The position numbers and the translations under genes were made by a program. Positions 5,836 to 33,388 of a DNA stretch of 64,000 nt are shown here, piece by piece. The notes under the pieces were generated by a model. That model saw only the letters and a list, made by a program, of their open reading frames with translations. It had not been told where the DNA came from and did no database searches. Every line of letters starts with the position of its first letter. Positions within the stretch are counted from its first letter, which is position 1. This stretch comes from Phycomyces nitens (taxonomy: Eukaryota > Mucoromycota > Mucoromycetes > Mucorales > Phycomycetaceae): assembly GCA_022702545.1 (NCBI GenBank), contig JAHRBC010000002.1:7564001-7628000 (forward strand), read 5' to 3'.

Positions 5836-5839
5836 AATA

Positions 5840-5886: not shown

Positions 5887-5924
5887 AAAATAAAAATAAT
5901 AGTTATACTAAAGTATAAGCTAAT

Positions 5925-5998
5925 TGCCCACTACAGGGGTCGAACCTGTGGCCTTGGCGTTATTAGCACCACGCTCTAACCAACTGAGCTAAGCGGGC
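5925..5998 (-). tRNA. tRNA-Ile (anticodon AAT)
   Basis: Read on the minus strand from 5998, the sequence folds as a full cloverleaf. The acceptor stem is GCCCGCT/AGTGGGC with one G-U pair and discriminator A at 5925. The D arm has the A box TTAGCTCAGTTGG, the anticodon stem-loop is TGGTG-CTAATAA-CGCCA, and the T arm has the B box GGTTCGAACC. The loop gives anticodon AAT, read as IAU for isoleucine. There is no intron, and CCA is not encoded, as expected in eukaryotes. Its first 15 nt are repeated four more times to the right, at LINE junctions. It is the landing site for LINE and LTR elements on its 5' side, and a gypsy insertion lies close on its 3' side. Confidence 0.96.
5984..5998 (+). repeat. 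15-mer junction repeat, copy 1 (inside the intact tRNA)
   Basis: CTGAGCTAAGCGGGC, the complement of tRNA nt 1-15. Other copies are at 18240, 30811, 31820 and 33374. It is the apparent LINE target-site duplication. Confidence 0.93.
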
Positions 5999-6008
5999 AC
6001 TGCTCTTT

Positions 6009-6761
6009 TGACACGTGTGTTGTGGGCAGGTTAGGTTTCGACCATAAAGCCGGACCAAGGGCCCGGACATAGACATAGGAGGTGTCGGAGGCCGGGCTAG
6101 CCCGAGTAAGAAGTCCGAGCCGAGTGAGTTGGGCAGGTTTCCGGTGAGGTGACGTTGGCAGGGCAATCCCCGAGTTTCTATATTTTTCTTTCTTCCTAGT
6201 CTTTTCCCGTTTTTTATTTTATTACATTTATTTATTTCCTTTTTTATATTATTTCCTTTTCTATTTCTTTTGTGAATCCTTGACACCTTCTTGCAGGATT
6301 GTACCATTTAACACCTCTTTAAACAATTGTCTTTGTACAATGTACTTCTTCCATTTTTACCTTTATTATTTTTACAATATTTTTATACTATACTTTATCA
6401 CACTGGTCTAGAATTGCATCATTTTATTCACTTATTTCTTTATTCTTCGTTTTACATTGACTGCGATGGCACAATTCCATCCAGTTATTTTATTATTTTT
6501 GGTTATTCTTTTTCGATTCTGAATGTCTATAAAAGACATTCAGTTTTCAATCAATAAAACATATCTTTCGTTGGGTTTAATACTGGTTCTATTTTATTTT
6601 ATTTGTACTTTTCAATCTCTGAAGAGCAGTGATATTTTGCCCGGTTACATTTTGGGAATATACTGTTGAGTTTTGTTAGTCATTTTCTTTATCTATATTA
6701 TTGTTTTACTATTTGCCGTCATTCGTCACTATACACAACCGTATACACACATCACGCGTCA
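6009..6761 (+). repeat. Solo LTR-like element M1 (753 bp)
   Basis: Starts TGACACG, ends CACGCGTCA, and has the 4-bp duplication CTTT at 6005-6008 and 6762-6765. It holds a GTGACGT motif near 6149, a TATA box TATAAAAG (6528-6535) and CAATCAATAAA just downstream. It starts 10 bp from the tRNA 5' end. It shares only ends and promoter layout with M2-M5. There are no internal genes, so I call it a solo LTR. Confidence 0.85.
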
Positions 6762-6766
6762 CTTTC

Positions 6767-7750
6767 TGACACGGTGTGTTGTGGTGTTGTCGGCCTCAGT
6801 CGCAACCCGATTTTTGGGCTGTTTTGGGTAGCCAAGGTCACTGACGGTGCAGGTAGTCGTGACGTGGTCCTCAATTTATTTCATTTGCCGACGGTGGGCG
6901 AAGACCTTTGCACCTTTTCCCTTTGACATTTTTTTCTTGTCTCTCAATTTTTCTAATTTTTCCTTAACAAAACCTTTTCCCCTTTCTTTCGATTTCCACT
7001 CACACTAAAATTTAGTGTTGTGTTTTGTTGTACACTTCTTTAACAATTTTAGTAAAAAATCTCTCGTTAGTCAAGTCTACAAATCTCCCAACAATTTTCT
7101 CATTTATTTAGTTTTATTATTATTTTTATTTTTATTGATTCTATTCTATCCAATATTCTGTCAACTCTTCCGTATGTTATTTTATGATTTCATACAACAT
7201 CTTTCTATTATTTTATCGTATATTATTTTATCCAACAATTAGTATAAATATCTCAAAATCAAACACTCAATAAACAATGTCGAATTCTGATACAAGTTTC
7301 TTCTCTGACAAAGTTGTCTGAATCCTTATTCTTTCTTGTGAATTTCTTCCGTTATATTTTGTTTCTTACCAAGTCTTCGTGGAAGATTGGTTGTTCTTTA
7401 TATTTTTATTTGTATTAGTCAAGTCTTCTTGGAAGATTGACTACCCCCTTTTTTTATTATTCTCATTTGTATCCCTGTGCTGTATTTTGTTATTGATTCA
7501 CCTGTGGTGAAGTTAATATCATATATTTGTATCCATCCTATTTGTATCCCCTTTTTGCTCTCACTTTTGTGAAAGCATTTCTTATTCCTGTCCTTGTAGT
7601 CACTTTGGTAACAAAGCGACTATCTTATTTGCACCCGTTTCCTCCTTTTCGAACCTATTCTTCCTCCATTCCGGATTTCGATCCATATTACTACCCGTAC
7701 CTTTCTTTTCTCGTCCACCTCCTACATACAACAAAGTACCACACGCGTCA
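6767..7750 (+). repeat. Solo LTR-like element M2 (984 bp)
   Basis: TGACACGG...ACACGCGTCA with duplication TTTC at 6763-6766 and 7751-7754. Close relative of M5 (31845-32825). TATA box at 7243-7250 and AATAAA about 20 nt later. Downstream lie two hairpins with nearly the same loop but different stems (7368-7391, 7417-7442). Confidence 0.87.
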
Positions 7751-8374
7751 TTTCACTTTAACATTTATTTTGACCGGTTGGCAATTTTTATTATTGCCGC
7801 ATCCATTCAAAATCGATATCCATCCATCCAAACAACACTCTAAAACGACGCATCCATTGACGAAATCATTGCATCCATTGTCCATCAACCCCCAACTGCA
7901 TCCATCCATCTCTCAGGTACCTCAGAAAATTTTTTCAGAGCTTTCAGACAACTTTTTGTTTTCGCAATCTCCAATGTCAACATCGTTGCCCCCATCTGCA
8001 TTGCAGGGATTACCTGATGCACTTGCTGCATTCCTGAGCAACATGCATGTTCAATTCACTGAACTCCAGAGCCGAACTGCCCAGTTGGAGACTCTTACTG
8101 CTGCCAATGCCCGATTGACCTCAGAATTAGAGAATGCCAAGACGATGATTGCCGATCTCCAAGCTGAGAATGCAATGTTGGCTGGAAAAAATTTTCCTGC
8201 CATTTCGAACCCCGCCGGCGCGCCTCAGGCATCTCCTTATTTTCTATCGTCTGATGTTTAAATTTGGAGGAATAGTGGCTTTTTCAGTGAAGGCTTGGCT
8301 GAGTTACTAGTTATTTTCTCTTGATTTCTTTTTATTTTTTTCTTTCTCGAATTCTTTATTAAAAATATTCAAAA

Positions 8375-11300
8375 ATGTCCAACAACACTATTATCTATAA
8401 CATTTCGAACATCCAAAATGCTTTGATCAACTCATCAATTGAAGGCATTAAAATGCTTCCTTTGAATACAACAATCTCAGTAAAAGCCAGTGAATGGGAG
8501 CAGTGCCTTGGCCGCATGAATGCACTCTGCTCAACAAAGTGGACAGTAAATAGAAAACTTCAGGATCAAAGTTTAGTCTTTGGAGAGACTAGACAATGTC
8601 ATCGTTCTGGAAAATATCAGTCTAAGCGTCAAATCCGTCTTGCGCAAAAGGACTCAAAGAGATGTGGGTGTACTGCTGCTTTGAAAATCAAGCAGTATAA
8701 TGGCACCTCGATTGTTACCTTTTGCATGACAAAAGATCATATCAATCATGTTCCTGGAGAGCGCCAGGAAATCAGAACTTTGCCTTTGCCCTCTGAGGCA
8801 ATCAAGATCATCGAGGATCAGCTGAGAAGTGGAAGCAGTTGTAGAAACACAAGGATATCTACTCTTAGACAAATTGAAAACTGGGGTGTGGGTATCAGAA
8901 AGCCCAATTATGAAGAGATTTACAATAGAATGAAGAAGGTTTGTTGGCAGTGATGTAAAGAAAAAGAGATTGAATTTAATAGTATGATACAAAATATAGA
9001 TGGAAACATTGTTATATATGTTTAACTCAAATGAGAAGACATCTTTGTCAATCTGGTTGAACGAAAAGCTGGCATCCCAGAATTATTCAATCTTTATTGG
9101 AAATCTCTTGGCATACTCAAACAACCAAGATCTCTTTGCATTTGGATTCCAGTCGCCAACACAAGTACCACTATGGCGGAAGGACCGGTAGCTGTGCCGA
9201 AAACGGTAGCATAACTACCGTTTTTTATGATTTTTGAGCACTTTATCTCCGCAGATTGTGGTTGAAAGGTAATGTCATCGATGCCGATTCATAAAAGTCG
9301 CATGGAATGTCTTTTCATCAGGCAATGAGGTAGTTGTAGTACCATAGAAAGGGCTCGTAAGTTTTTAGGCAACGTTATTTATTGAAATGAGCATTTTATT
9401 TGGTGTTAACGATGTTGCGCATTTTTGAGAAAAATAATTTTTCGCCTGTGTGAACAAAACGGTAGTTATGCTACCGTTTTTTGAAACAATTTTTTTGTTT
9501 TTGACATTATTAGCCATTTTATTTTATTTTATTTGGTATTGATATTTATAAAGAAAGAAAAAAGAAAAAGAAAATTTTTATAAAGTGGCAAGATTACCCC
9601 TGGTCACATGCAGATTGTCATTAAACACATAATATGATGCAATGATAAAGAACTGATTACTACTCGGAGGGTACTGGATGAGCCCAACTTGATGCTGAAT
9701 GTCATCCACATTAACAGCATATTTTGGCTGGGTTGTTTGTCCAGTTGAGCTGTGTGACCGCCGTATTACGATTGGCACAGATGAGTCATGGGCTGCTGTA
9801 CCATGCTCTTTCATCACTTCAACGAATGCCAGAAAGTGCGGTGTGCCATCAACCTCTTTATGCTCAAAATAAAATTCCACGGTGCCAACAAACCAGCTTT
9901 GAATAGTTATATTGCGACGGCTAGATAAAAATATAAAAAATGCGAGTGATCTCTATTTTGTATTTTGACTAATACCAATACTCACTTTCTGTATGGACAG
10001 GTGAACATCACATGATGATTGCCACGTCTGGTCTCGTTTTTTATTCTTTGGTACATACATGAAGAATGTACGGTTGAATTTTTCCAAAGACGAGAAGCAA
10101 CAACAATCGTCGGGTCATCAAGTTCAATACTGTCCATACCACTGTTTCGCACATAGTACTTTGCCAAAGTATTCTTGACAACAGGGCTGCTGACACCTTC
10201 CAAGTCATCATCATTCAAACTGGCATGTCAGTTGAATGGCTCCCATAGCTGGGCAGCACTTACACCATCTGGAAGATCTAAGAAACTTGCTTCATTATAT
10301 GTGGACGGCTGACTTGTACTAGGATAATTCTGAGAGCTGTTTGCTGAACTGACAAAGCTATGAACAGCAAAGCGCTCAACAAGCAAACTGGCATTTCTAC
10401 CGCCCTTCAAGTTTGACGTGATAAGCTTGGAGTATACTCTAATTACTTTTTCCATGGGTAGGTAAGAGATTATTTGACTAATAATAGCAACAGCAGCAAA
10501 GACACTTCTTGGTCAATGATGACAAAATCAACGTACCTGTCATCAATGATTGTGGCCAGTGAGGCACGGCTAGGACAATAGCACTCCACATTTACAAGTG
10601 CAAAAGAATGTGGTGTGCCAAGAATCTTCTTCAAGACACCTTTAAGAGTGCAAACCAGACTTGTAAGAGAAAAATAGCAGAGAACAGCCAGGCAAGTTTA
10701 TTAATTAACAAACATTTGAATATACATTATAATTAATACAATATTTTTATTATGTTATAGCAGGAAAGAGCAAGCAGTTCTTTTCTTTCGGAAGATGAGG
10801 TATTTCAAACGGATGACGAGGCTGAATCCCCAATCATGACAGATGTACTATAAGTTAGAGCTTTTTGTTGCTCATCTATTCTCAATTTAATATTAATATA
10901 ATATTTCTACTGTTTGATATAGGTTTACACCACTAGGAATGAGCAATGAGCCTTCATCTAAGAGAAACAGACTAAGTCTTTAATATTCTTTAGGCTGCTC
11001 TTATTGGTTCTCTCATATTTTTAGTATATGTTTTAGCGCACTTTTTCTTTTCCTCTTTTCCTTTAGCTGTTTTATCTTTGCTTTGGTCCTCTCCTTTGAA
11101 ATAAAATCGAATAACTCTCCATCACGTAAGATTGCCACCTTAATAAATGCCCGATTGGCATCTTGTATACCACATCTTCAGCTCTGTTGTTTTTAATCTA
11201 GGAATGAAACACACATCTCGCCCTTTTTCAAGCACCAAAAAAATGAATTTTTTTATAGCTGTATTACGCCGAGGTTAGTTTATATTTCTTTTCTTTTCTT

Positions 11301-13848
11301 TGCTCTACTTTTTGAAATAAAACTAAATGACCCTCCCTTATGTAAGGTTGTCAATTACATAAACATCCGATTGGAATCTTGTATACCACATCTTCAGCTC
11401 TGCTATCTTTAATCAAGGAATGAAACACTCATCTCATAATTTTTCAGACACTAAAAAAGGTGAAAATTTTTTACAGCTATATTACACTAAAGTTTGTCAT
11501 TCCCCACCTCCCCACCTGGGAATCTCTGTAGAATATGCATATTGTTTTCTTAATGATGTACTCATTCTGCCAACTACCATTATATTCGAATTAGTTTTAA
11601 ATCTTATGAGCTGACTTTACAGCAATATATTTTCTATGGTAAGAATATTATAATATGTTTACACTCTTTAATTAATCATATTGCGCATTCTCTATTCTCC
11701 TTCTACTGCATCTAGTATTTACATCTGTATGTTTCATATAGTGGCATTAATTCAAGAGATGCTTGGTATACCGATTAACAAGCACAATATATACTGGTAT
11801 GCTATCCAAAACAATATGCTTGGTTTATTTGATCGCTTCATTCTCTGACCACAATATCTTTATAGCAATTGATGAAGACCAAAGGCCTTCCAAGTCATGA
11901 CAGTGATTCACAACAAGATGCTCGGCACGCTGATTAACAAGCACAATATATACTGGTATGCTACCCAAAACGATATATTCGGTTTATTTGATTGCTTCAT
12001 TCTCTGACCACAATATTTTTATAGCAATCGATGAAGACCAAAGGCCATCCAAGTCATAACAACATGTTGTTGGCATCGTGTATAGATTGAGTAAAAGGTT
12101 TGTACCATATACGCTTTATAATATTAAATAGTATTTGCTTTTGGTATGTTTCTATATTATTATTATATATATTTTAATATTATTTGAAATAAATCGAAAT
12201 TATAATAAAAAATAAACCATTATTTCAAATAAATGGCAGTAAAAAAAGAATGGGTGCTAGTATATAAAGTAATATAAAAGAGAGGCTATAGTATATAAAG
12301 AAACGATTTTGGTTGGATAAAAAAACGGTAGCTGTGCCTATTCCTGCCTCATAACTACCCTTTTTTTTCGCACTAAAAAAACGGTAACAGCTACCGAAAT
12401 CGCCTTATACAGAGTCTTTACTACCGTTTTTTTTGGTGGGAAAAAACGGTAGTAATGCTACCAAAACGGTAGTTAGCTACCGTTTTTTCCGCCGTAGTGT
12501 ACAAATCATGAGTTTATCTCAATCATTTTGCTTGGATGCCACCCACGGAGTTTCCTGTAGAAGTACGGAGGTTATGTACTCCTTGGTTACCAAACACCCT
12601 GAAACCGGAAAAGGTTATCCTGTTGCATTTATTATCACAAATGATCAAAGTGTTGGTCCCATCAACCAATGGCTTGTATATCTTCGCCAAACCAACCCCT
12701 TCAATCCATTGGCAATCACGATTGACTGTTGTATTGCCGAAGCCAATGCAATCACCTCTGCATTACCACAAACATCGATTCACTACTGTGAATTTCATGT
12801 CCTTCGTGCTTGGCAACATAACCTTGACAGTAAAGTCAAGCTAGATGGATCATTTACAACGCAACAGCTGGCAGAGTATAAGCAAAGCCTGAAGAACAGT
12901 TTGAAAAGTATTCTTGTTGAGTCAAATGAAGCAATCTTCATAACAAAAATTGGAGACTTTAAAAGAATGATCCAAGATCAACCTGAATTTCTAAGATATT
13001 TCGAGAGAAAATGGATAGGAAGCGAAAATATATTGAGAAGATGGGGACGTCCTTTTGTTCAGCAGCACCACCAAAGATACTTGACAAACAGCTACATTGA
13101 ATCATGGCACAACCAACTGAAAGTCATTTATTTCAATCGTGCAAGAATCAGAAGATTGGACCGTCTTGTCTTTATCCTGACCAACGATGTTGAGTTCTAC
13201 TATGAACAAGAGGTTGAAAGACTTAATTTCAGCAATGGAAGAATGGGTCCTGTTGAAAACGAGCTTTCAAGAAACTCCTTTGCTGCCTCCCAAATCCAAG
13301 AGGACATACTCCCTTCTATGATCATTAACCCTTTGGGTGAGATTAGTAATAGTATGGATGACTCTCATGGTGAGTGGCAAATCAAGTCTTTTTCAACAGA
13401 AAATCAATGGTATACTGTCATGATTGAACATGGGTTGATCCAAAAGTGTTCTTGCCCCAGTTTCCACCGTCGCCAACTGCCATGTAAGCATATGTACCTG
13501 CTCAAGCAATACAGTAAAGCAAATTTGGTATATCATGAGCAGCAAGACCATGCACACATGCAGTTGCAACAATCAGCCCAGAGTGTCAGAAATGAAGCTT
13601 TAGTGGATAACAATGTTGAGCAAAGAAATGGATTGCAAGATCCTAGCTTAGTAATCCAAAGTATTATGGCCAATGCAACAACATTGTATCATCAGAGAGA
13701 AGATTTGGAGAGATTGAGGAGCATTCCAGGTGTGGATATTTCTAAGTTAGAGATGGTAGACAGGTTACTGTTTGATGCATTAAAGCATGTTGATGACTTG
13801 AAGAATGAAAACTCTCTTCATTTCCAAAATATAAATACTCAACGTTAA
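8375..13848 (+). CDS. MULE transposase (FAR1-type finger, MULE core, SWIM)
   Basis: Cut-and-paste transposase. Exons are 8375-8938 and 9000 onward, with a GT-AG intron at 8939-8999. The second exon is interrupted at 9168 by CACTA A and resumes at 12503. With A and one TAC removed the frame is open for 692 codons. N-terminal residues about 60-130 carry a WRKY-GCM1/FAR1-like finger (CHRSG...CGC...HINH). The core has LDATHGV (first catalytic Asp), ITIDCC and the FHVLRAWQ segment. A SWIM finger CSCPSFHRRQLPCKH lies near 13449-13494. The gene was intact when A landed; it is now interrupted and unlikely to be expressed whole. Confidence 0.9.
9169..12499 (-). mobile_element. CACTA element A (3.33 kb, degenerate)
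   Basis: Ends CACTATGGCGGAA / TTCCGCCGTAGTG with 3-bp duplication TAC (9166-9168, 12500-12502), the CACTA hallmark. Alternating subterminal repeats of AAAACGGTAG occur within about 200 bp of the ends. It is the same family as B and C in reverse orientation, with size 3331 bp against about 3335. The inside holds only decayed tnp2-like reading frames at 9578-10455. From 10470 to 12300 I see AT-rich sequence with an imperfect internal duplication (about 11755-12060) and no gene. Confidence 0.92.
9578..10455 (-). pseudogene. tnp2-like C-terminal remnant in CACTA A
   Basis: Three minus-strand frames, 10455-10228, 10218-9982 and 9880-9578, are the same peptides found in B and C. The first two are separated by one in-frame TGA. 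The last two are separated by a GT-AG intron (about 9981 to 9916). The last block, beginning VGTVEFYFEH and containing HQVGLIQYP, has the arrangement of the tnp2 tail. No N-terminal catalytic region is present. The stop is shared by all copies, so it predates the spread of the family. Assignment to tnp2 rests on resemblance and on the element ends. Confidence 0.55.
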
Positions 13849-14640
13849 TAAAAATCAATCTTTTTCATAATAGGTTTTGTAACAAAAAGTATTTAAAAAA
13901 TGTAAATAGATCACACTACAAGAATTTGTAAAAGTAAAAGCTGTCACAAGTTCCTGTTATTCCTCCAAATTTAAACATCAGATGATAGAAAATAAGGAGA
14001 TGCCGCCTCAGCCCCCTCTGCAAAATAAAGAGCCAGGCACTGAAGCTTCAACTTGGGCTCAAACAGTGAGTTCTAACCGCCCTGCCAAGCAAAGACTTGC
14101 TCCTTCTGCCCACCGAGTAGCTGCTTCTACTTGTATGTTTGTCCTTCCTTCTGGTCCTACTGGATATAAGTATGTGTACATTCCACGTTCTCGCCGCCTT
14201 ACCCATCGGGAAGTCCGCCAATCTCTCAGAACCCTTGGTGTGGAATCCTCGCGCCTTTTGGACATTACTTTTCCTGCTCGTGGTGTTGTTGGCATCCTTG
14301 TATACCTCCAGTATCTCTCTGAGTTCCAAGCCCAGTTGTCTTCTGCCTCTATCAAGTGGTTAGATGACTTTGATCCCCTGGATCCAAGTCATATTGCTGA
14401 TCCCAAATATGCTGGGTTGTCAATTCATGACCGTGCTCATACTGCTGCCCAGCTTCATCATAACCGCTGTCTCCATGCTCTCAAGTACTTGCGTCCCCAT
14501 GTTGCTATCCCAGTTGCCCACTTTTTCTGTAATGAAGGGTGGATTGCTCCTGAAGATGTCCCCACCCGTGTTGCTCCTGGTTCTGGCTTGCTGGACAACT
14601 CCCTCAAAAGATCTCACAGTGGTTCTGTTAGCATATCTGA

Positions 14641-17600: not shown

Positions 17601-17959
17601 AAGTGGATCCTGTGTTGTTTCTGCCTGCAACTTGCATTGAACGTGGCCGTTTAGTTTGTTGGAGAATGGGCTGGCTTCCTGGTAAGCCTAGAGAGTACAC
17701 TTGCCAACAGGACCATACTTCAAGACGCCATCTCCAAACCTGCACTGCCATTCCTTCTCACCTCCTTGCCATTCTTCCTCCTCCTCCCACTCCTGATATC
17801 AACACCATTGACTATGCCCTCACTTCCCTGCCTACCACTGCTACCACACGCCCCTCCTACTGGACTGCCCTCCTTACCATCCTCTGGCATATTGACATCC
17901 TCTGTAACCCAGATGGAGACTATGCCCATGAGACTGATCATGGCCTTTCTTGGCATTAG
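14641..17959 (+). pseudogene. LINE-A ORF2 (AP endonuclease, reverse transcriptase)
   Basis: Nicks target DNA and primes reverse transcription. The start at 14641 overlaps the ORF1 stop. The endonuclease is at 14641-15340, with LWNANGL, FITETWLL, CGDLNARLG and SDHRLL. The RT is at about 15900-17100, with FLDIKAAYDTVDRR, GVLQGSVLSP and FADDVAIFG. The tail has an HTSRRHLQTC finger remnant that lost one cysteine relative to LINE-B (CPCGTDHTSRRHLAEC). A one-base shift in the C-rich run near 15330-15350 separates endonuclease from RT. A TGA at 17324-17326 replaces an arginine codon of LINE-B. No RNase H is seen. Total 3.3 kb, full length for this family. Confidence 0.92.
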
Positions 17960-18239: not shown

Positions 18240-18254
18240 CTGAGCTAAGCGGGC
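18240..18254 (+). repeat. 15-mer tRNA-derived junction repeat, copy 2
   Basis: CTGAGCTAAGCGGGC between LINE units 1 and 2. The rest of the tRNA is absent here, as expected for a target duplication. Confidence 0.93.
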
Positions 18255-18264
18255 ATACTCTTTC

Positions 18265-21715: not shown

Positions 21716-24700
21716 ATGTCTTCTATTTCCGCACAAAACACTACTGCCTGTTACTGCAACAAATGCAGCAATAACCAGCAAGGATTCACTATTGTATCCA
21801 AGCGCACTTACCAACGCCATAGTAAGAGAGCAAGAACTGAAGAAACCGGCGAATTTGAGAGCAGTATGTATACTAGTGTTAATTTTCATTTACTGCGCAA
21901 TAATAACTTGTATTTTTCAATTGAACTCAGGCACACAAAGTGATATGATGGATTTGGACGTTGAGGGTAAAATATATTTATTTGAAAACCAGTGCAGAGT
22001 AATAAACTAATCTAACCCATATTTGCAGCAATGCCGATTATTGAATCCGAATCCGTGGCAGTTGACAGTCAGCCCAGCTTACCTTTTGGGGATTATGACC
22101 AAATGGTTGATGCCAATCAACTTGACAATGAGGTCAATGGCGATGGTGCCGAAATCACCAACGACTCTGACAATGACAGTGATGATGAAGCCGATGTCGA
22201 GGAGATTGAGGTCGAGGAGTTTGATAGTGAAGGTCAGTATTGAATAGCTATAATACAAAAGCAAGCAAAAATTGAGTGTTAATAATTTTCCTTTTTAAAT
22301 AATAGACCCTTTTGCTACTCCTGGTATGCCCGAAAACCCAGTGCACAGAGCAATTGCCATTTTCGTTGTTCTGTTTGCATCCCGTTATGTGGTCGATAAG
22401 GGTGCTGTTGTCTTGATTGAGTTCATCAACAAACTCTTGACGATTTACGGACAGGACTTCCAATTGCCCTCAAGCCTTTCTGGTCTCCAAAGCATGACGG
22501 GTTTCACTGCCTTGACCAAGGGTGTAAAGAGATTCGTTGTGTGCCAGGATTGCCACACGGTGTATGAGGAAGCTGGGTCTGCTCCACTTCGGTGCGATTC
22601 TGCTAAGCTCGGTTCCCAATCTGTATGTGGTTGTCAATTGATGAAGCAATCGTCATCTGGTGCTTTGGTTGCCAAGAGATCGTACGTCTATCAGTCCGTC
22701 AAGCAGGCGTTGAGAGTCCTTTTCCTCCGCCCGGATTTTGAGACCAAGATTCGTCACTGGAACCAGGAGCTAAAAGTTGTAGACACCATGTGCGATATCT
22801 ACGATGGTGCAATGTGGAAGGGTCTCCAGGACATGGGTGGTGTTTCGTTCGTTGCAGATCCACGTTCTTTGATGCTGACACTGAACATTGACTGGTTCCA
22901 GCCCTTTGATGGAATCAGCTATTCTTGTGGTGCCATCTATCTTGTAATCAATAATTTGCCTAGGGAGGAAAGGTTCAAGGCCGAAAATACTATTCTCGTC
23001 GGTCTGATGCCTGGACCCAAGGAGCCAAAGACAGATGAGATCAACAGTTATCTCAAGCCATTGGTCGATGAACTGGAGCAGTTGTTTGTTGGAATAAGGA
23101 TCCCAACCTTTGAGTGCCCGTCTGGTGTCAATGTCCGTGGTGCATTGTTGATGGTGGCGTGCGATATCCCAGCTGCAAGGAAGACGAGTGGGTTTACGGC
23201 ACACAACAGCACCAATGCATGCTACAAGTGCAATCGTCAGTTCTCTCGTTTGGAGGGGTCAAACCAGGTGGATTTCCGTGGATTTGACTATTCACAATGG
23301 TCTCTTCGGACATCAGTTGACAACAGACACCATGCAACACTTTGGAAAGATGCCCAGACGATTTCCGAAAGGCATGGACTTGAAGTTGAGAATGGTGTAC
23401 GATGGTCAGAGCTTCACCGCCTCCAGTATCTTGATCTTGTCCGCGCAACTGTGGTGGACCCCATGCACAACCTCTTCCTGGGAACCGCCAAGAGAATGGT
23501 TGAAAACTGGATCTCTGGTGGTGATTTGTCCAATGACGATCTTCTTGTGATGCAGGAGATAGCAGACACCATGGAGCTGCCAAGTGATTACAGTTCACTA
23601 AAGACAAAGATTGCCAGGGGATTTCCATTCATGAAAGCAGACGAGTGGAAATCTTGGGTGCTGGTATATTTGCCTGTTGCGTTGAAGCCCGTTCTCCTGC
23701 GTCAAAAGTTTAACAGTTGGATGAACTTTGTGGATGCCTGCCGCCTGATTGTCAAGCCATCTGTGTCCTTCCAGGATGTTGACAATGCCCATCACCACCT
23801 TCAGCAATTCTGCCAAGAGTGCGAGCGCCTTTACCCTCCAAGTCTTCTCACCTGCAACATGCACCTGCACCTCCATCTTCATAAGACCATCAATGATTTT
23901 GGACTGGTGTACGGCTATTGGCTCTTTGGGTTTGAGAGGTACAACGGATTGCTAAAGAACGTGAGCACGAATGGAAAGAATGGGTTTGAGGCAACCTACA
24001 TGCGGAAATTTGTCCAGGACGTATTCAAGAATGATTATGTCAATGCTGTTCTACAATCTCCAAGCCAAGACATCTTCACTCCTCTCTTTTCAAACCTCCT
24101 CTCTGCCTCCACCTCTGCCTCTATCCCTACCCCCACACCCACACCCACACCAACACCAACACGACGCCCGTTCAGATTGCTGGATTTCATCGAAGCTTCA
24201 GAGAATTCTGAATTCCCAATCAAGGGTAACGAGCCTCTTCCCCCCTCTGCGTTTCCTCTGCTTCAAAAGTCTGCCACAAAAATGAGTGATATTGACTATC
24301 CTCAATTGTTGGCTTACTATGTGGATACGTATGACATTGACACCCTCCAGCATTATCAACATGCCACTTCTTCTTCGTTGTTTGTTGACAATCAGATCGT
24401 GAAGCTGAAATCGATAAATCTCCTTGGCCAAGTTTATCGTGGACACAATAGCTCTGGAAATGGTGGATCTCGTGTACAAGCTTTGTTTGGTAGCAGCACT
24501 GGTGAGAACCAGACCGCCTATACTGGGCAGATACAGTATATTTTTGTTCATCAGTTTACGCCGCCTCTCTCTGCCTCTGTCCGTTTAAATCGTCGTGGCT
24601 ATCAAAGCCAGCATGTCTTTGCCTTTGTGCGATGGAATGGTGTCTGTTATGAACGATCACGCGAAGATGAAGGTGTTGACATCTGTTTGCCCAGTTTTTC

Positions 24701-24830
24701 TCCTGCTACCAATGAGTGCATCTTGCCAGTGCATCGCCTTCTTTTGGAAGTTGCGACTGCCACACACACAAGCCGAAATGGTATAAAGAGGATGCTGGTC
24801 ATTCCTTTGCCAAAGAAACTTTGCGTGTAA
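21716..24830 (+). CDS. CACTA tnp2-family transposase (E1)
   Basis: Transposase of the element. Four exons: 21716-21863, 21931-21966, 22029-22232 and 22306-24830. All junctions are GT-AG and in phase, giving 970 aa. Exon 1 encodes a small zinc-binding motif (CYCNKC...H). Exon 3 is strongly acidic. Exon 4 carries the tnp2 core: CQDC...C zinc site, LTLNIDWFQPF, GLMPGPKEPK, ACDIPAARKTSGF with a following CYKCNRQF, DPMHNLFLGTAKRM, NMHLHLH and YGYWLFGFERYNG. Aspartates in NIDWF and CDIP are candidate catalytic residues. A TP-dipeptide repeat (about 24127-24165) links core and tail. No stop is present, so it could be active. Confidence 0.9.
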
Positions 24831-24955
24831 TAAAAAAAATAAATATCTTTTCTCTTTTATAAAGAACAAACAGAAATAGCATTGCCTTTATAAATGTCGT
24901 CAAAACGTAACGCGTGTCAAAAAAAATAGATGGAGAGATAAAAAAAATTATTTTA

Positions 24956-26144
24956 TTAAAGCCCATGTCTAAGAGCCCACTGAGCAAGACTGGGATTTAA
25001 ATTGGTCGGGACTGCCACGTCCACAGTTCTGCCATAAACCCTTGACAGCAACTGGTGAGAGTTTGCTCCAAGTTGGAGACCAATGAATCTATCAATGACT
25101 TGGATAAATCGGTTGTACTATCAATTGCACATTAGTAATCTAAAGTCATCCAAAATATTATTTATAATCAGCTCAACAACTCACTTCATCGCTTCTCCAA
25201 CTTGGGCGGACGGTCCGAATCACACGTCTTCTTCCAGTTTCGGAGACTTCGTCATCCGATTCTCCTCCGGACATTGCTTCCTTGGGGAGTGCATTGGCAC
25301 AATCCCGGCCCATCTCTTGGTTGATGGCAACCATGTTGCTGCCGTATGCCTTTGTTCGGCGCTTGTGGTTCTAATAATAACCTTGTTATTATTTTTTGGA
25401 ATAGATTTTTAATATATCAAGGATAACTTACTTCACCAGCACGTCTGGCTCTCCATGAACGTGTGTTCGTGATCTCTTTTGCAGCAGCAGAGATCTTCTC
25501 CTGTTTGCATCTGTTGATGAAGTTTTTGTGGAGCTTATCACGAAGATCCTTGGTTCTCATCCCATCACCAGCAAACTTGCGCTCCAGGACGACAAGAAGC
25601 CTGTTCACTAACTCCTTGTTTGGAGTCACATTAAAGTGAACATCCGTGTTCCACCTGGGCTTGTTAGTGTTGGCCAAGATCTCTGCTGGAGTATTTGCAT
25701 GGAAATTTGGCTCCCACAAGAACTCACGGATCTTTCTCTGATATAGTAAACAAGTTAATGAATTGATAATATAGTATAAGGTATAATGCTTACATTGACC
25801 TCCACTGATGTTTTATGGCTGGGTCCGGCCAAACCAATGGCCTCCACAACCGCAACATTGCTGGGTTCACTGGTGGCAGTGGCAGGAACCTCTTCTCCAA
25901 AATTGTCAATGGCCTTAATGGCTTCATGGGTTCCAGCAATGATGACACCAAGTCTGGCATCCATCGTTACCAGTTTGGTGTTGGAGGTCACCAACTCGCC
26001 TTCTACATTGGTGACCTTATCTTCCACTCTGGTCATGTTGTCTTGAATTCCAGAGAGCATCTCGACAATTTGCTCCATGTTGGCAGGAGTGAGAGCAGGA
26101 GCAGGAGTGGGACGAGGAGCAATCGATCTTCTTTGGTTAACCAT
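24956..26144 (-). CDS. CACTA companion gene (E1), unknown function
   Basis: I do not recognise the family. Four exons on the minus strand: 26144-25794 (351 nt), 25737-25432 (306), 25370-25185 (186) and 25117-24956 (162). All introns are phase 0 GT-AG, giving 334 aa. The start MVNQRRSIAPRP is conserved in E2 and E4. Exon 1 has a coiled-coil-like stretch (MEQIVEMLSGIQDNMTRVEDKVTNVE is the region, residues about 22-47). Exon 2 has NKPRWNTDVHFNVTPNKELV. Exon 3 ends GESDDEVSE...RPSWRSDE. It faces the tnp2 gene tail to tail, 125 bp apart. By position it could be the TnpA-like DNA-binding partner; that is inference only. Confidence 0.85.
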
Positions 26145-26256
26145 TTTCTAGAATATGGTAAAGTATATTTCGATTATAATTATTAGTTTTTGTTCAATTG
26201 AAATAAAAATAAATATAATACACATACAAAAACTGTTTTGTTGGGTGGGTGAGTAA

Positions 26257-26282
26257 GTGTGTGTGTGTGTGTGTGTGTGTGT
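26257..26282 (+). repeat. (GT)n microsatellite
   Basis: About 13 GT units upstream of the companion gene. A shorter tract sits at the same place in E4 (about 56535-56549). Confidence 0.9.
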
Positions 26283-26580
26283 AAAGGTAAGAGAGGTTGA
26301 ATATCAAAAAGGCCGTTATATATAGGCATTTTGAATGACTATAAAGATGTTCCTCTATTGTCTTGAAGCACTGAGATGCAAATCGGCCTTGATATTGTTT
26401 TTGGGCTCAATCCATCATGCTTTCCGCAGCATGCTTCAAAGGTGAAAAAAATTTCAGACTCTCTCCTTTTTTTGGTTCCCTTTATTTTTCCTTTTCCTTG
26501 CTTTTTTGATATTGGCGCCTTTCTCTGGTAAGACATTTTTTATACCTCTTTATACACACAAATTAACCTCTTTTTCATAG

Positions 26581-27090
26581 ATGTGCGCTCCCATTGCAAC
26601 TCATCCTTTCCACAATGGCCATCTAGACAAATACTCACTGGCCGCATTCACTGGTACCATCATCTTGATAAAAATTATTTTCACTTTCTCTTTTAGATTG
26701 GCCAAACAACTTATATAGGGATGCCATCGGCACCAGGTAAATTTTTTCTTTCAATCATACTTGTTCCCTCTCTGACTCTATTCCATTGTAGACTGCCCTT
26801 TCTATTCATGCCATCGGCCTCCTCCATCATTCGCAATTGTAATCATAAAGGTAATATTCTTTATAAATCTCTTTTTGCTTATCCAAAATATTATTCAGAT
26901 TATTTATTAATTATTATTATTATGTGTTTTATAGACTCACTTGGGCTTCCTTTACACACCATACCCCCTACTTTGATAACCCATTTGGCTCCTGGTATGT
27001 AAATTAAATATATCATCACTCTGTTCACCCATATTAATTTTTATTCCCTTTTTTATAGTAAAACCTGCCACACAGCCCATCCAGCCTTAA
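26581..27090 (+). pseudogene. Third CACTA gene, truncated copy (E1)
   Basis: Exons 26581-26653, 26697-26736, 26792-26850, 26935-26994 and 27059 onward match those of E4 in length (73, 40, 59, 60 nt) and in splice sites. Here the fifth exon meets TAA at 27088-27090 where E4 has TAC, so the product would be 87 aa rather than 138. The peptide starts MCAPIATHPFHNGHLDKYS and is proline-rich. A conserved upstream exon-like segment ending tttctctg/gtaag (about 26528) may be a 5' UTR exon. No family is recognised. Confidence 0.6.
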
Positions 27091-30000
27091 AATTCAAGTC
27101 CCCTTTGCGCACTCTTGCCCATCTCTTGCAATGTAAGTATCTTTTGACACACAAAAATTTTCTCTTTGTACCCCACATCATTAACACTTCTTTATCTTTT
27201 ACAGAACACTCCTGCAGCCCAAAAAATTGCTGGATATTCATATTTTTGCAGGTATTTTTTATGTAGAAAAATATTCCATCCAAATAGCAGCAAGCAACCG
27301 GGTAGAAACGGCTAGGCATAGGAATAGGCGTAATAATAGACCCTAAACCTAGAAACATTCTATTCTTTCCAATAAAAATAAAAGCGTAAACCATTACCAA
27401 TCCAATATAAACAGGAAATCAAATAATGGGTGATATATTACTGGTGAAGAAGAATAAAGAGGCTTTCAAGTGTTTGATTTGATTGGTCTTGGGTAGTAAC
27501 CACTAGTAGATACATCGAGTTTCTACAACTCGCAACATAAAGATATGTGACGTATCTGAACATTTCAACGACCACGTTGAGACGACCAAAATAGAACCGT
27601 TCTTTTAAATACTTTTTTTCATCGTTCCAAATCAGATCTATATACCGAAAGTGCTAACAGACCTCACCTGCGGCACATTTTTACATGTTTCTACTACTGC
27701 AAACCACGACACCGAGGTACCTGTGAAGCTAGCATGCCTCCTAGTTGAAAAAATATTTAAACTAGGTGAAACCCACCCCTTTTCAGTACCATAATGCCGG
27801 ATTTCTGGTACTACAAACAGCCCCTCTTTTGCAGTGATAGACAAGATCAATTGGTGGAGCCGGCACCAACGAGCACATCTGGAGTTCCGCCAAGCCATTC
27901 AGACCGCCAAATGCGCTTCCTGGCACGCCTTCTGTGAGGCTATGGAGAGAAACTTTGGCAAAGCTACCTCCAAAATCAAGCAGTTGAAGCGTCGCCGCCA
28001 ACCCCAACACACTTTCCAACATGACAATGGTCCCTCCGCAGCTGCTGAGACAATGCGCGCACACCTGTCCTCTGTCTACAGTGGTCACATCCTTCCCATC
28101 TCCCGTCCTCCTCCTCCTCCTGACACCCTCTCTCTCACCCCATTCGCCTCTGTTGACTCACCATTCGATTCATCGATGGTTGAAGAATACATGCATTGGC
28201 TCCCTACCCGAAAAGCCCCTGGCCCAGACCACATTCGCGCAGAAATGCTTAAACCCGTCCGTCGTTTTGTTGCCCCCCTCCTCTCCCTCCTCTTCACCAT
28301 CTGCTGGCAGTGGTCATACGTTCCTTCCCTCTGGCGTCAAGCCCAAGACTTCCCCATCTTCAAAAAAGGGAATCCATCCGAAGCAGCCAACTATCGACCA
28401 ATCTCCCTCACCTCAGTCGTTAGAAAGCTCTTTGAGATGTGTATTGCCCCGATCCTTCACTCCCATTCCCCTCCCCTTGACGTCTCCCAAGGTGGTTTCC
28501 GTCCTCGTCGTGGTGCCCTCGATCAAGCCCTATGCCTCCATGATCTCATGAAAGCCCACTATGCCCGTCACCACCACTACCCCGTCGTTGCCTTCCTTGA
28601 CATCAAGGCTGCCTATGATACTGTTGACCGACGGGTCATATGGCATGCTCTTGCCCAACGTCAAACCCCTCCCGCTCTTTTGGCCTTACTCGTCAACATG
28701 TTTGACGATGTGTCTATCTCTGTCCTTTTGGGCAATTTCGTCTCCTCTCCTTTCATTCCGTCAACGGGTGTGTTGCAAGGTTCTGTCCTCAGCCCCCATC
28801 TTTATTCCATTTACATCAACGCCCTGCCACCACTCCTTTGCACAGTTGCCACTCCATCCTCCGCCACTTTCCTCCCATCGCCCTCTCCCTCCTCGTTGGA
28901 TGCCTACCAGTCCCTTCTTGCTCCTTCAGGTGTGGATGGCTTTGGGCATATTCGTTCCCCCACCCCCATCAACTCTCTCCTCTTTGCTGACGACGTAGCC
29001 ATTCTTGGCAGTAAAGTCGATGTGCAACGCATGCTTGACCTCGCTGCTGAACACTCTTTTGCTCTTGGATACCGTTGGAGTTCCTCCAAGTGCGCCATCA
29101 TATGTCCTCCCACCCGTGCCCTCAACCCCACTTCCCTCTCCCTCTACAGCGAACAACTCCCCTTCGTCGAAGAGTTCATCTACCTTGGTGTCCCATTCCG
29201 TTCCAAGGGGATCTCCTCCTCATCCCTGGTCTCGCACCAAAAACCTGGCACTCTTGCCACAATGGCAACACTGAATGCAGTTGGTGCATGTTGTTCTGGC
29301 TTTTCCCTGCTGCTGAGTTCTCAGCTGTACAAGTCGTTCATTAGACCAAAGTTTGAGTACGGACTCGCCATTGCTGCCCTCATTGGGCGTGATTACAAGA
29401 ACCTGGAGAAACTGCAAGACAAGTGCTTGAGAATGATTGTGGGTGGTCACGCCACGTCATCTACAATCGTCCTCAAACACTTGTGCAACTTACCCAGTAT
29501 CCGGTTCCGTGTTGACGTTATTGTCACAAAGTTTTGCCTTTGTGCACGTTCCTTGCCTTCTGGCTGTCTCCTCTCGCTCCTTCTCCTCCACCATCCCCAG
29601 CACTCCTCCCTCAACCGCCTCCGCTCCAATGTCCTCTTCTCCAACCTTCCCCCCACCCTCCGCACCTTCTCACCCTCCCTCTTGAAAAAGCACTTTGAGT
29701 CAGTCCGTCAGATCCATTTTGGATATTTCTGCAATGAGACTGACCAAATGCTTATCAGAGCATGTCGCCCCGACCTTGGGGTTGACCCCATCCTCTTCCT
29801 CCCTGCCTCTCGTGTAGAGCGCAGCCGCCTCGTCCGATGGCGTATGGGTTGGTTGCCTGGCAGACCCAAGGAATGTCCTTGTGGTACTGACCACACCTCC
29901 CGTCGTCACTTGGCCGAGTGCCCCTCCATTCCCTCTTCCCTCTTTTCCGCACTCCCTCCTCCTTCCTCGCTCTTTGACCATCCCATTGATGCAGCCATCT

Positions 30001-30333
30001 CTTCCCTTCCCTCGTCCGCTGCCCACCCTTGCCCACCCTTTTGGATTCCGCTCCTCACGATCCTTTGGCACATAGACAAGCTGTGCAATCCTGATGGAGA
30101 GTACACCCACGAGAGGGACCATAGTGCTTTGTGGCATGCCACTTAGCCTTTTATTTTTATTTTATTTTTATCCTTTTCTAGTTCTTTTCGCGCAGGAAAA
30201 GTTGTCTATCTGTTCTCCTTCCTTCTCCCTTCCACTGTTACAAATATTATGCAGCTGCGAAGAGGAGAGTTGGGTACAGCTTTCATCCCAGTACTGTTAG
30301 CTCCCCACTTTTCCTCTCTTTTTTTTGTCTTTT

Positions 30334-30709
30334 TGTCAGGTATCGATCTGGTATTTCTTTTCTGGCACTTGTAACTAAGTCGCAGAATCAATACCACTGG
30401 GGATCGTCAAGTTCAAAGAATAGTTTTTAGGTAATAGATAGATCGCTTTTTATTGATACAAATCCTTTTACTATTTATACAAAATGTAATTAGATTTATG
30501 GCTAAATGTATAGCTACGTTAATATGTCTTAGATGGCTATTGTCCAGTAGAATATACTTAAGAGATATTCGCAATCTAAGACACTTGAGACATTTAGAAA
30601 CATATATAGGGAAACCAATTGGCAAGGTCTTGATCGTTTACCCAACAAGGTCAACCATTACTGGTTGCCTATCAAGAGCCGATTTCGGTTGCCGATGTCA
30701 ACTCTGACA
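30334..30709 (-). repeat. Solo gypsy LTR, reverse orientation (376 bp)
   Basis: On the minus strand it starts TGTCAGAGTTGACAT at 30709 and ends TGACA at 30334, flanked by TTTT on both sides (30330-30333, 30710-30713). It shares ends and the tataaatag...caataaaaag promoter block with the LTR at 438-784, but is diverged and has a longer 3' part. It interrupts the LINE-B 3' UTR; units 3 and 4 show the uninterrupted sequence. Confidence 0.85.
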
Positions 30710-30810
30710 TTTTGTCCCTAAGACTTTTTTCCTTCACCTTTCGTACTTGAGATGCTACATGATCTATAGATTGCCAGCAATATATCTCGTAATAAAAAAA
30801 TAATCTTTAA

Positions 30811-30825
30811 CCTGAGCTAAGCGGG
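30811..30825 (+). repeat. 15-mer tRNA-derived junction repeat, copy 3
   Basis: CTGAGCTAAGCGGGC between LINE units 2 and 3. Confidence 0.93.
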
Positions 30826-31819
30826 CCCTTCTGAAATGACACAGGTGTTGTAGATTTACCAGCTGCACCACAAAACTAGCAGAAATCCCGTGACGTCACT
30901 AAGGGCCCCACCAAGAAAGAGTGCTACGTCACAACTAACCGTCACTACCATCATCGGAACTTCAGCGGGACCTGAAGTTATCCCCAATTTCCGGATTTCT
31001 TGTCCAGAATATTGTCTCAATTCTTTTTCCCTTTTTATCTTTAAAGATTATTTCCCCTCACTTCGATTTACCCTGACATTTTTACCTTTACCCATTCCAT
31101 TGTTCACACTTCGATAATTCTTTCCAGCTTACCCCCCATATTTTATACTTCTTGTTCATTGACACTTTTCCGGATTTGTTCATATAATCTCTTTTATCTT
31201 TAGCTACGATTGGAATGACATTTGAATAACATAATTAGTAAGAAGAACTATTCAATAGTTTTGTATAAAAGAAGAGCAATATCTCTATCAATAAAATTCA
31301 TTCAGTTTTCCGATTATTTTCTTTTGAACCCAATTCGAGCTTGTATTATCCTGAGTGAAATACAAGGCTGTTTTCCGTTAAAGTTATAAGATCTCTGTCT
31401 CACTGTTGGTTCCATTGTCCGTTGTTTGTATATTCTGTCCGTTGCTGTCCGTTTTTCTGTCCGTTCTTATCCCGATTTCTGTCAGTTGATTGTCCCGAGT
31501 GAAATCAACTAGCCTTTAACTGTCCGTAAACCTTCTTGACCAGTTTACGCTACACAACCAAACTCAACACGCGTCAGAAATGTTTCTTGTTCTGCAATTC
31601 TGTCTCCTTCCTTTCACTGTTACACCTTTTTACACAGCTGCAAAGTGGAGAGCAGGTTCAGGCTTTTAGCTTAGTATGATTTGTTTCCTTTCTCCCCCTC
31701 TACTTTTTTTGTCTTTATGATTTCCTAAGACTTTTTTGCTCCTCTCTTTTGCACCTGGGATGCTATATGATCTATAGATCGCCAGCATTATATCCCTATA
31801 ATAAAAAATAATCTTTAAT
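30826..31819 (+). mobile_element. LINE unit 3, severely 5'-truncated, with LTR M4
   Basis: Without M4 the unit is only about 250 bp. It starts in the 3' UTR (ccttctgaaatgtttcttg, matching LINE-A at about 17990) and ends at the 15-mer. It has no coding sequence. Short 5'-truncated copies are typical of target-primed insertion. Confidence 0.85.
30836..31576 (+). repeat. Solo LTR-like element M4 (741 bp)
   Basis: TGACACAGG...CACGCGTCA with duplication GAAA (30832-30835, 31577-31580), starting 10 bp after the 15-mer. It contains a full CRE-like TGACGTCA at 30891-30898 and a TATA box TATAAAAG at 31264-31271. Two leader hairpins at 31340-31366 and 31485-31509 share the loop pattern gtccygagtga. 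Confidence 0.87.
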
Positions 31820-31834
31820 CTGAGCTAAGCGGGC
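31820..31834 (+). repeat. 15-mer tRNA-derived junction repeat, copy 4
   Basis: CTGAGCTAAGCGGGC between LINE units 3 and 4. Confidence 0.93.
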
Positions 31835-31844
31835 TCCTTGTGGT

Positions 31845-32825
31845 TGACACGGTGTGTTGTGGTGTTGTCGGCCTCAGTTGCAACCCGATTTTTGGGCCGT
31901 TTTGGGTAGCCAAGGTCACTGACGATGCAGGTAGTCATGACGTGGTCCTCAATTTATTTTATTTGCTGACGGCGGGCAAGGACCTTTGCACCTTTTCCCT
32001 TTGACATTTTTTCTTGCCTCTCAATTTTTCTAATTTTTCCTTAACAAAACCTTTTCCCCTTTCTTTCGATTTCCACTCACACTAAAATTTAGTGTTGTGT
32101 TTTGTTGTATACTTCTTTAACAATTTTGGTAAAGAATCTCTCATTAGTCAAGTCTACAAATCTCCCAACAATTTTCTCATTTATTTAGTTTTATTATTAT
32201 TTTTATTTTTATTGATCCTATTCTATTCAATCTTCTGTCAACTCTTCCGTATGTTATTTTATGATTTCATACAACATCATTCTATTACTTTATCGTATAT
32301 TATTTTATCCAACAATTAGTATAAATATCTCAAAATCAAACACTCAATAAACAATGTCGAGTTCTGATACAAGTTTCTTCTCTGACAAAGTTGTCTGAAT
32401 CCTTATTCTTTCTTGTAAATTTCTTCTGTTATATTTTGTTTCTTACCAAGTCTTCGTGGAAGATTGGTTGTTCTTTATATTTTTATTTGTATTAAGTCAA
32501 GTCTTCTTGGAAGATTGACTACCCCCTTTTTTTTATTTCTCATTTGTATCCCTGTGCTGTATTTTGTTATTAATTCACCTGTGGTGAAGTTAATATCATA
32601 TATTTGTATCTATCCTATTTGTATCCCCTTTGCTCTCACTTTTGTGAAAGCATTTCTTATTCCTGTTCTTGTAGTCACTTTGGTAACAAAGCGACTATCT
32701 TATTTGTACCCGTTTCCCCCTTTTCGAACCTATTCTTCCTCCATTCCAGATTTCGATCCATATTACTACCCGTACCTTTCTTTTCTCGTCCACCTCCTAC
32801 ACACAACAAAGTACCACACGTGTCA
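31845..32825 (+). repeat. Solo LTR-like element M5 (981 bp)
   Basis: TGACACGG...CACGTGTCA with duplication TGGT (31841-31844, 32826-32829), starting 10 bp after the 15-mer. Near-identical relative of M2. TATA box at 32320-32327. Confidence 0.88.
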
Positions 32826-33090
32826 TGGTACTGACCACACCTCCCGTCATTACTTGGCCAAGTACCTCTCTATTCCCTCTTCCCTCTTCTCCGCACTCCC
32901 TCCTCCTTCCTCGCTCTTTGGCCATCCCATTGATGCAGCCATCTCCTCCCTTCCCTCATCCACCGCCCACCCTCACCCACCCTTTTGGATTCCGCTCATC
33001 ACAATCCTTTGGCACATAGACAAGCTGTGCAATCCTGATGGAGAGTACACCCACGAGAGGGACCATAGTGCTTTGTGGCATGCCACTTAG
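32826..33090 (+). pseudogene. LINE ORF2 C-terminal fragment (unit 4)
   Basis: About 87 codons of the ORF2 tail (GTDHTSRHYLAKYL... to RDHSALWHAT) match LINE-B 29884-30146, with several changes including loss of the finger cysteine. A longer open frame reaching back to 32464 runs through LTR sequence and is accidental. No function is expected. Confidence 0.85.
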
Positions 33091-33373
33091 CCTTTTATTT
33101 TATTTTATTTTTATTTTTTTCTAGTTCTTTTTGCGCAGGAAAAGTTGTTTGTCTGTTCTCCTTCCTTCTCCCTTCCACTGTTACAAATATTATGCAGCTG
33201 CAAAGAGGAGAGTTGGGTCTAGCTTTCATCTCAGTACTGTAAGCTCTCCACTTTTCCTCTCTTTTTTTGTCTTTTGTCCCCAAGACTTTTTTTCCTTCAC
33301 CTTTTGTACTTGAGATGCTACATGATCTATAGATTGCCAGCAATATATCTCGTAATAAAAAATAATCTTTAAC

Positions 33374-33388
33374 CTGAGCTAAGCGGGC
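33374..33388 (+). repeat. 15-mer tRNA-derived junction repeat, copy 5
   Basis: CTGAGCTAAGCGGGC between LINE units 4 and 5. Confidence 0.93.

Follow-up and report, generated by a model that had tools for sequence, protein, structure and literature searches.

The window analysed here, a 64,000-nucleotide (nt) stretch of the Phycomyces nitens genome (C4:7564001-7628000 of the 49-Mb, 11-contig assembly against which it was compared), contains an intact tRNA-Ile(AAT) gene beside an array of long interspersed nuclear elements (LINEs), and one 15-nt sequence marks both the gene and the LINE 3' ends. The gene is the only tRNA found there and lies on the minus strand at 5924..5998 (5924-5999 by ARAGORN, 5925-5998 by Rfam); identical or one-base-different matches to it exist at 10 other loci. 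The 15-mer, CTGAGCTAAGCGGGC, has exactly five exact copies on the plus strand, at 5984, 18240, 30812, 31820, and 33374. With up to two mismatches, the expectation from shuffled sequence is 0.04, and none of 100 shuffles gave five copies. Since nt 1 of the tRNA is position 5998, the copy at 5984 is the reverse complement of tRNA nt 1-15 (5984..5998, minus strand). The other four copies each abut a LINE 3' end, AATAAAAAA(A)TAATCTTTAA[T/C]. The original prediction, made from the sequence of this stretch, had the number of copies and four of the positions right, while its 30811 should read 30812. Its identification of the 15-mer with the first 15 nt of the tRNA gene, and of the leftmost copy as the only one within a whole tRNA, agrees with the ARAGORN and Rfam results, and its placement of the 15-mer at every LINE 3' junction holds for four copies, the one at 5984 being the tRNA itself with no LINE junction. 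Genome-wide, the 15-mer is found at 20 exact places, of which 11 are tRNA-Ile genes and the other nine lie directly 3' of LINE ends.

The array comprises five LINE insertions of two families, A and B, all on the plus strand, with the fifth incomplete. Closest to the tRNA is LINE 1 (family A, 5999..18239), which has a full 5' end, as in L009/L065 and L063, and whose endonuclease (EN) open reading frame (ORF, 14641-15390) and reverse transcriptase (RT) ORF (15251-17326) are in different frames. The 15-bp duplication at its 3' end (18240..18254) is followed by LINE 2 (family B, 18255..30811), also with a full 5' end (ATACTCTTTC...), which recurs beside a tRNA-Phe gene in L126; both LINEs are interrupted by later insertions. 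Beyond the next duplication (30812..30826) is LINE 3 (family A, 30827..31819), which is 5'-truncated near its 3' end and shares 97% identity with LINE 1, and beyond the duplication at 31820..31834 is LINE 4 (family B, 31835..33373), likewise 5'-truncated, about 93% identical to LINE 2 and with family B sequence beginning right behind the 15-mer. The last duplication (33374..33388) precedes the outermost layer, LINE 5 (33389..33937), of which only the 5' part is present, with a family A-type 5' end (89% identity to LINE 1), before it is interrupted after about 33937. The order of families by self-comparison of the window is therefore A, B, A, B, A. Because the layers alternate two families that are about 70% alike in DNA (73% in RT protein), and because LINE 3 and LINE 4 are truncated at different points, we regard them as separate insertions. 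The array in the window, to judge from its sequence, is a set of independent insertions at one base pair, and local duplication does not explain its layers.

The ORFs of families A and B, and of a third family, C, that occupies other loci, place these elements among the LINEs. RVT_1 was matched by family A (E 3.8e-24), by family B (7.3e-22) and, in two pieces, by family C (2.2e-11 and 2.5e-08), and the best solved-structure match of the LINE RT was human L1 ORF2p, followed by R2. Upstream of the RT, Exo_endo_phos_2 was matched in family A (E 5.1e-13) and in family C (2.8e-11), in the latter within the ORF that holds the first RT part. The elements have target-site duplications (TSDs), 5' truncations, a constant 3' end and no long terminal repeats (LTRs) of their own, features by which we class them as non-LTR retrotransposons of the apurinic/apyrimidinic endonuclease (APE) type. 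Neither an RNase H match nor a Pfam recombinase was found in the LINE ORFs scanned. The 3' end includes a conserved stem-loop of 13 pairs, with two-sided changes at three of them. The nearest named relatives of ORF1 are in P. nitens and P. blakesleeanus, and those of the RT are in Rhizopus, Mucor, and other mucoralean fungi.

Using 3' ends of the A, B and C types as queries, we collected 59 distinct LINE 3' ends, a set that represents less than the whole genome (one search scored 40 of 59 candidates). We read the next 15 nt after every one of them, 58 by script and L051 by hand, the latter being not tRNA-like. Exact nt 1-15 of an intact tRNA gene follow 34 of the 59 ends and a version with one or two mismatches follows seven more, so that, as the original prediction had anticipated for LINE 3' ends elsewhere in the genome, 41 of 59 carry an exact or near-exact tRNA 15-mer. 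In these 41 ends TTTAA(C/T) is directly followed by the tRNA 15-mer, with no oligo(A) tail. Among 42,000 15-mers drawn from the same loci as a null set, five were within two mismatches of a tRNA 15-mer; we take these five to be real 15-mers, since the null loci overlap the arrays. The 15-mers derive from nine isoacceptors: Ile(AAT), Thr(AGT), Thr(TGT), Phe(GAA), Ser(AGA), Ser(TGA), Ser(GCT), Leu(CAA), and Leu(TAG). The target is thus broader than the tRNA-Ile gene first proposed, which is indeed hit, and is better described as the A-box site of numerous tRNAs, nicked behind nt 15. The families divide these tRNAs between them: all 21 tRNA-type ends of families A/B are at Ile, Thr or Phe and all 20 of family C at Ser or Leu. 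Loci at which an A/B end and its tRNA match include tRNA-Phe with L050, tRNA-Thr(AGT) with L035 and with L038, L044, and L059, and tRNA-Thr(TGT) with L034.

At two solitary family C copies, the insertion event can be seen in its plain form, as an intact tRNA, the LINE, a 15-bp repeat and unrelated flank. The first (L092, C5:5690143-5694868) is a 4726-bp copy between exact 15-bp repeats of tRNA-Leu(TAG), and the second (L108/L109, C5:5841768-5846492), which lies at tRNA-Leu(CAA), has a single additional T where its 5' end joins the gene. At 95% identity or more, 25 family C 5' ends were listed, and the surroundings of 15 were fetched. Twelve of these adjoin an intact tRNA with 0-13 extra nt; three (L112, L114, and L116) meet an LTR end instead, and for two of the three a tRNA-Ser(AGA) that matches the 3' 15-mer is 1.0 and 7.1 kb off. 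Four more sit in arrays behind the 15-mer of another copy (L078, L080, L081, and L082, the last with an LTR end preceding the LINE start), and six were not fetched. At all 12 tRNA-abutting loci the 3' 15-mer comes from the same isoacceptor as the adjoining tRNA, with L089 and L090 typed by eye, their tRNA bodies being identical to those of L110 and L108. Truncated copies can also begin at the gene, as the family A LINE in L135 and L136 starts at the first base beyond the tRNA. Family C has moved recently, because 12 copies are identical in both their last 100 bp and their first 167 bp. It also forms tandem runs of two copies at C5:4021776-4031240 and of three at C4:7999823-8014024, one at a tRNA-Ser and one at a tRNA-Leu gene.

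Nine short copies away from tRNA genes (about 90-350 bp), with both ends within the fetched locus, were tested for duplications of their own. All nine are flanked by a 15-bp direct repeat, with 11-15 of 15 positions matching (four at 14 or 15), and in all nine one or both of the repeat copies begin with YTG. The repeat is at, or no more than 3 nt from, the first LINE match in eight of the nine and 29 nt away in L051. The off-target C-type ends begin CTC (L075, L076, L118, L119, and the more distant L087). Because these nine copies have 15-bp duplications of their own, we regard the 15 bp as the TSD. The enzyme itself seems to dictate the 15-nt stagger and the nick at (C/G)AG^, with the A box, or factors on it, supplying the rest. 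Three short elements (L054, L055, and L060) and part of L053 have nearly a common start near the 3' end of LINE B; the three are possibly a family of non-autonomous elements, resembling short interspersed nuclear elements, that uses the LINE machinery off target.

We consider it very likely that these APE-type LINEs insert by target-primed reverse transcription (TPRT) inside tRNA genes and that a 15-bp duplication rebuilds the gene. Target-primed insertion with such a duplication was already the proposal of the original prediction, and it is the best reading of what is now a pattern of nine isoacceptors and three LINE families. On sequence evidence, the tRNA is intact, is accompanied by 15-bp repeats of a tRNA type matched to the locus, and has received independent insertions, while off-target copies have 15-bp duplications as well; the junctions seen are all in one orientation. 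In the proposed mechanism, the element would cut the A box on the tRNA-sense strand directly behind nt 15, at ...GCTCAG^ for families A/B and at ...SSGAG^ for family C; in the window, this nick would separate positions 5984 and 5983 of that strand. The freed 3' end would prime copying of the LINE RNA, whose 3' end is defined and lacks oligo(A), and the opposite strand would be cut 15 nt off, exactly at tRNA nt 1. Fill-in of both cuts would duplicate nt 1-15, one duplicate completing the tRNA on the 5' side of the LINE and the other becoming an orphan at the LINE 3' end. The tRNA would survive with an intact A box, open to renewed insertion, so that insertions pile outward and the youngest adjoins the tRNA. 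We infer from the junctions that TPRT takes place and that the nick after nt 15 of the tRNA-sense strand comes before the cut at nt 1; the endonuclease is the presumed cutter, and the tRNA is presumably still transcribed.

Several observations weigh against this reading. No tRNA 15-mer was recognised after 18 of the 59 LINE 3' ends; ends at unrelated sequence, which the original prediction had held to be damaging to it, thus do occur, and all nine of those tested have a 15-bp duplication of their own. These nine, the ones examined for duplication, are half of the 18 off-tRNA ends, and the repeats of L052 and L055 match at just 11 of 15 positions. Because 18 of 59 ends lie at other sequence, the specificity for tRNA genes is strong rather than absolute. 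L133 has C-like first 10 nt at a tRNA-Thr, a possible exception to the class specificity, and no tRNA was located for the A-box-like 15-mer of L032. The 5' junction of some full-length copies includes 1-13 additional bases, namely GGAC in L090 and L100, G in L099, T in L108, and 13 nt in L104. The 13 nt of L104 are from the tRNA-Leu(TAG) 15-mer and separate the LINE from the tRNA-Ser gene that it targeted, an apparent 5' transduction, which suggests that the L104 RNA started within the tRNA next to its source copy, possibly that of the L092 locus. Lastly, neither a tRNA nor a LINE start was present at the 5' positions guessed from length for L093, L096, L097, and L103; nested insertions are probably the cause, and L103 belongs to a copy that turned out to be off target.

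The strongest rival concerns how the tRNA is chosen. The gene might be picked through bound RNA polymerase III (pol III) factors, as by Dictyostelium TRE5 and yeast Ty3, with the endonuclease needing (C/G)AG^ alone, and we give this a real, if lesser, chance of being correct. Most off-target sites share just CTG (A/B) or CTC (C-type) with the tRNA sites, the 15-bp spacing is kept where tested, and LTRs occupy the same genes, all of which would suit tethering of this kind. Families A/B and C, however, divide between tRNAs with GCTCAG and those with (C/G)(C/G)GAG (21 of 21 and 20 of 20), although all of these should bind TFIIIC/TFIIIB, and therefore a direct reading of sequence by the element is favoured, at least in part. 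That a single insertion was multiplied into the array through unequal recombination or local tandem duplication is very improbable. The two family C runs, whose units are near-identical, would fit such growth, and both units of the C5 run have the same 5' junction, so that duplication may have occurred in that run, but those of the C4 run differ there (GGAC, GGAC, none), solitary copies display the event without any array, and the layers in the window alternate two families about 70% alike with different truncation points and different LTR insertions. We find it still harder to accept that the 15-mer is part of the LINE 3' end, captured once and therefore uninformative about the target: all four LINE 3' ends in the window do bear the same 15-mer, but closely related 3' ends bear nine different tRNA 15-mers, the local tRNA is matched at 12 abutting family C loci, and off-target copies have unrelated 15-mers that are also duplicated at their own 5' ends, a result that answers the corresponding concern in the original prediction. 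Site-specific recombination by an integrase-bearing element with its attachment site in the tRNA, which is brought to mind by the restored tRNA ends that are classical for bacterial islands, can be set aside almost entirely, as the LINE ORFs encode EN and RT with no Pfam recombinase among those scanned, and as TPRT is indicated by the 5' truncations and by off-target copies that are anchored at the 3' end and have 15-bp TSDs.

Insertion inside the tRNA gene by the LINEs is accompanied in this genome by a second class of element at the same genes, which the original prediction did not mention. The window has five TGACAC...GTCA elements, at four of the five 15-mers, where 10 bp of the next LINE and then the LTR come after the 15-mer; two stand in succession beside the tRNA. 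These are, on the plus strand, LTR i (6009..6761, 10 bp from tRNA nt 1, 4-bp TSD CTTT), LTR iii directly behind it (6767..7750, TSD TTTC), LTR ii (18265..19456, TSD TTTC), LTR iv (30837..31576, TSD GAAA), and a second copy of LTR iii (31845..32825, TSD TGGT), the last three each 10 bp from a 15-mer and all with 4-bp TSDs. Kinds i, iii, and iv contain a TATA-like and an AATAAA-like motif (by eye; ii was not read through) and are therefore taken as solo LTRs. Across the loci fetched by then, a recognisable LTR start was present in 37 of 63 distinct 15-mer junctions, in a scan that overlooks LTRs with an altered start, and the distance was 10 bp in 20, 11 bp in eight, 9 bp in six, and 7, 12, and 13 bp once each, so that 34 of 37 are 9-11 bp from tRNA nt 1. 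Because the LTR position is unchanged where the adjacent LINE is truncated, it is set by the tRNA end. Two retrotransposon classes thus use one tRNA gene, the LTR elements inserting some 10 bp upstream of it, in a manner similar to Ty3 and Tj1. A LINE or LTR was found at the 5' side of 35 of 45 tRNA genes (Ile 9/11, Phe 7/9, Thr(AGT) 8/10, and Ser 11/15), a count in which the ten 'empty' genes were judged on 56-76 nt of flank (1.5 kb for two Ile genes) and tRNA integrity on ARAGORN, Rfam or the start pattern alone.

Besides these five LTRs, four of them some 10 bp from a 15-mer and the fifth behind one of the four, the array is interrupted by a MULE-like and a CACTA-like element and another LTR. 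The MULE-like DNA transposon (8229..14003, plus strand, in LINE 1) has inverted ends, an 8-bp TSD, CGCCTCAG (8221-8228 and 14004-14011), and matches to SWIM and MULE domains; 3.3 kb of it are repeated in reverse at 47989-51331 with 99.5% identity. The CACTA-like element in LINE 2 (21474..27798, plus strand, bounds from the repeat match) contains Transposase_21 and is one of four such stretches in the window (21474-27798, 34110-37335, 39985-42450, and 51754-58079), three of them with Transposase_21 by Pfam and with 66-81% mutual identity where alignable. An insertion at 30334-30716, also in LINE 2, has a right end, TGTCAACTCTGACA, that by eye is the reverse complement of the LTR start of the gypsy element at 437-5836, and is probably a solo LTR of a related family in reverse. 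That gypsy element, on the other side of the tRNA, is a recently inserted Ty3/gypsy element, which (437-5836; gag 797-1921, pol 2247-5543, and identical 349-bp LTRs at 437-785 and 5488-5836) stops 87 bp short of the tRNA 3' end, and 58737-62783 encodes a 1348-aa Helitron-type protein with a Helitron-like N-terminal domain and a PIF1 helicase.

A wider model can be offered tentatively. An APE-type LINE clade may target the pol III A box, its sub-families split by the form of that box (GCTCAG; CCGAG/CGGAG) and together reaching much of the tRNA repertoire, and by regenerating both gene and target they would have an inexhaustible landing pad with age-ordered layers. By eye, A+T-rich, TATA-like sequence is seen both upstream of empty tRNA genes and in the LINE 5' ends when these are reverse-complemented, and the LINE 5' end might become the new upstream region of the tRNA; that it works as such for pol III is a guess. 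The antisense strand of the tRNA might in turn help to start the LINE RNA (compare L104), with a two-way promoter shared. For elements that target multicopy genes, the outcome mostly known is that a single copy is disrupted or that the insertion falls next to the gene; here, a vital gene would be cut within and then restored. The damage is undone and the target survives because the stagger reaches just as far as the mature 5' end of the tRNA. Gene restoration would explain dense retrotransposon arrays at tRNA genes, and it gives each locus a natural insertion order. It also points to APE-type enzymes that apparently use a 15-bp site common to many tRNA genes, which makes them candidate tools for targeted insertion and a test case for sequence reading versus pol III tethering.

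Among known elements, the LTRs are the more familiar. In the parts of the reports available to us, Ty3, Tj1, and DGLT-A LTR retrotransposons insert a few bp upstream of the mature tRNA (PMC4600332, PMC5006619), with Tj1 at 5-11 bp, similar to the mostly 9-11 bp here, and with a duplication of 5 bp rather than the 4 bp of the five window LTRs (PMC4600332); this comparison is made with solo LTRs, the sole form seen here. For the LINEs, the original prediction had cited Dictyostelium TRE elements as the known tRNA-associated examples, and these do differ in position, but excerpts of the literature describe other tRNA-gene-specific LINEs (PMC4640811, PMC5006619). Of these, NeSL-1_TV (tRNA-Pro), LIN15_SM (tRNA-Arg), and LIN25_SM (tRNA-Glu) are non-LTR retrotransposons in or near the NeSL lineage, whose endonuclease is restriction-like (RLE), and each is tied to a single tRNA; the sections seen of Kojima & Jurka 2015 (PMC4640811) give neither their position within the gene nor any rebuilding of the tRNA. 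They resemble our elements in being non-LTR and tRNA-gene-specific, whereas here the domain is APE (an RLE domain was not searched for by itself), the host is a fungus, and the nt 15^16 site is common to nine isoacceptors. The dictyostelid TRE5/TRE3, Dp_NLTR-A, and Pp_NLTR-B are APE-type LINEs at tRNA genes, and as partly seen in PMC5006619 and PMC5911963, TRE5 inserts upstream of the tRNA in opposite orientation, Dp_NLTR-A 2-6 bp upstream of the mature tRNA, TRE5-A/TRE3-A have an oligo(A) end, and the NLTR elements have RNase H. These insert outside the gene at a variable distance, whereas our LINEs cut at a fixed base within the gene, the 15-bp repeat also lies within it, the LINE 5' end is 0-13 nt from tRNA nt 1 (12 family C loci), and there is no oligo(A). 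According to the portion available of PMC3706591, some Dada DNA transposons have the TSD TAGCTC in the tRNA A box, and so insert inside tRNA genes as here, but with a DDE transposase and a 6-7 bp TSD rather than EN-RT and 15 bp, and the zebrafish LINE Dewa is likewise target-specific and tRNA-linked, but its target is the tRNA-Leu spacer rather than the gene. In the open-access literature, judged by title and the start of the abstract, we found no paper on tRNA-A-box LINEs in Mucoromycota and no APE-type A-box LINE family that rebuilds its gene. Set against the known systems as described, what is new here, in our reading, is an APE-type fungal group that nicks nine isoacceptors at a single exact position, whose families divide according to the type of A box, and whose duplication makes the gene whole again.

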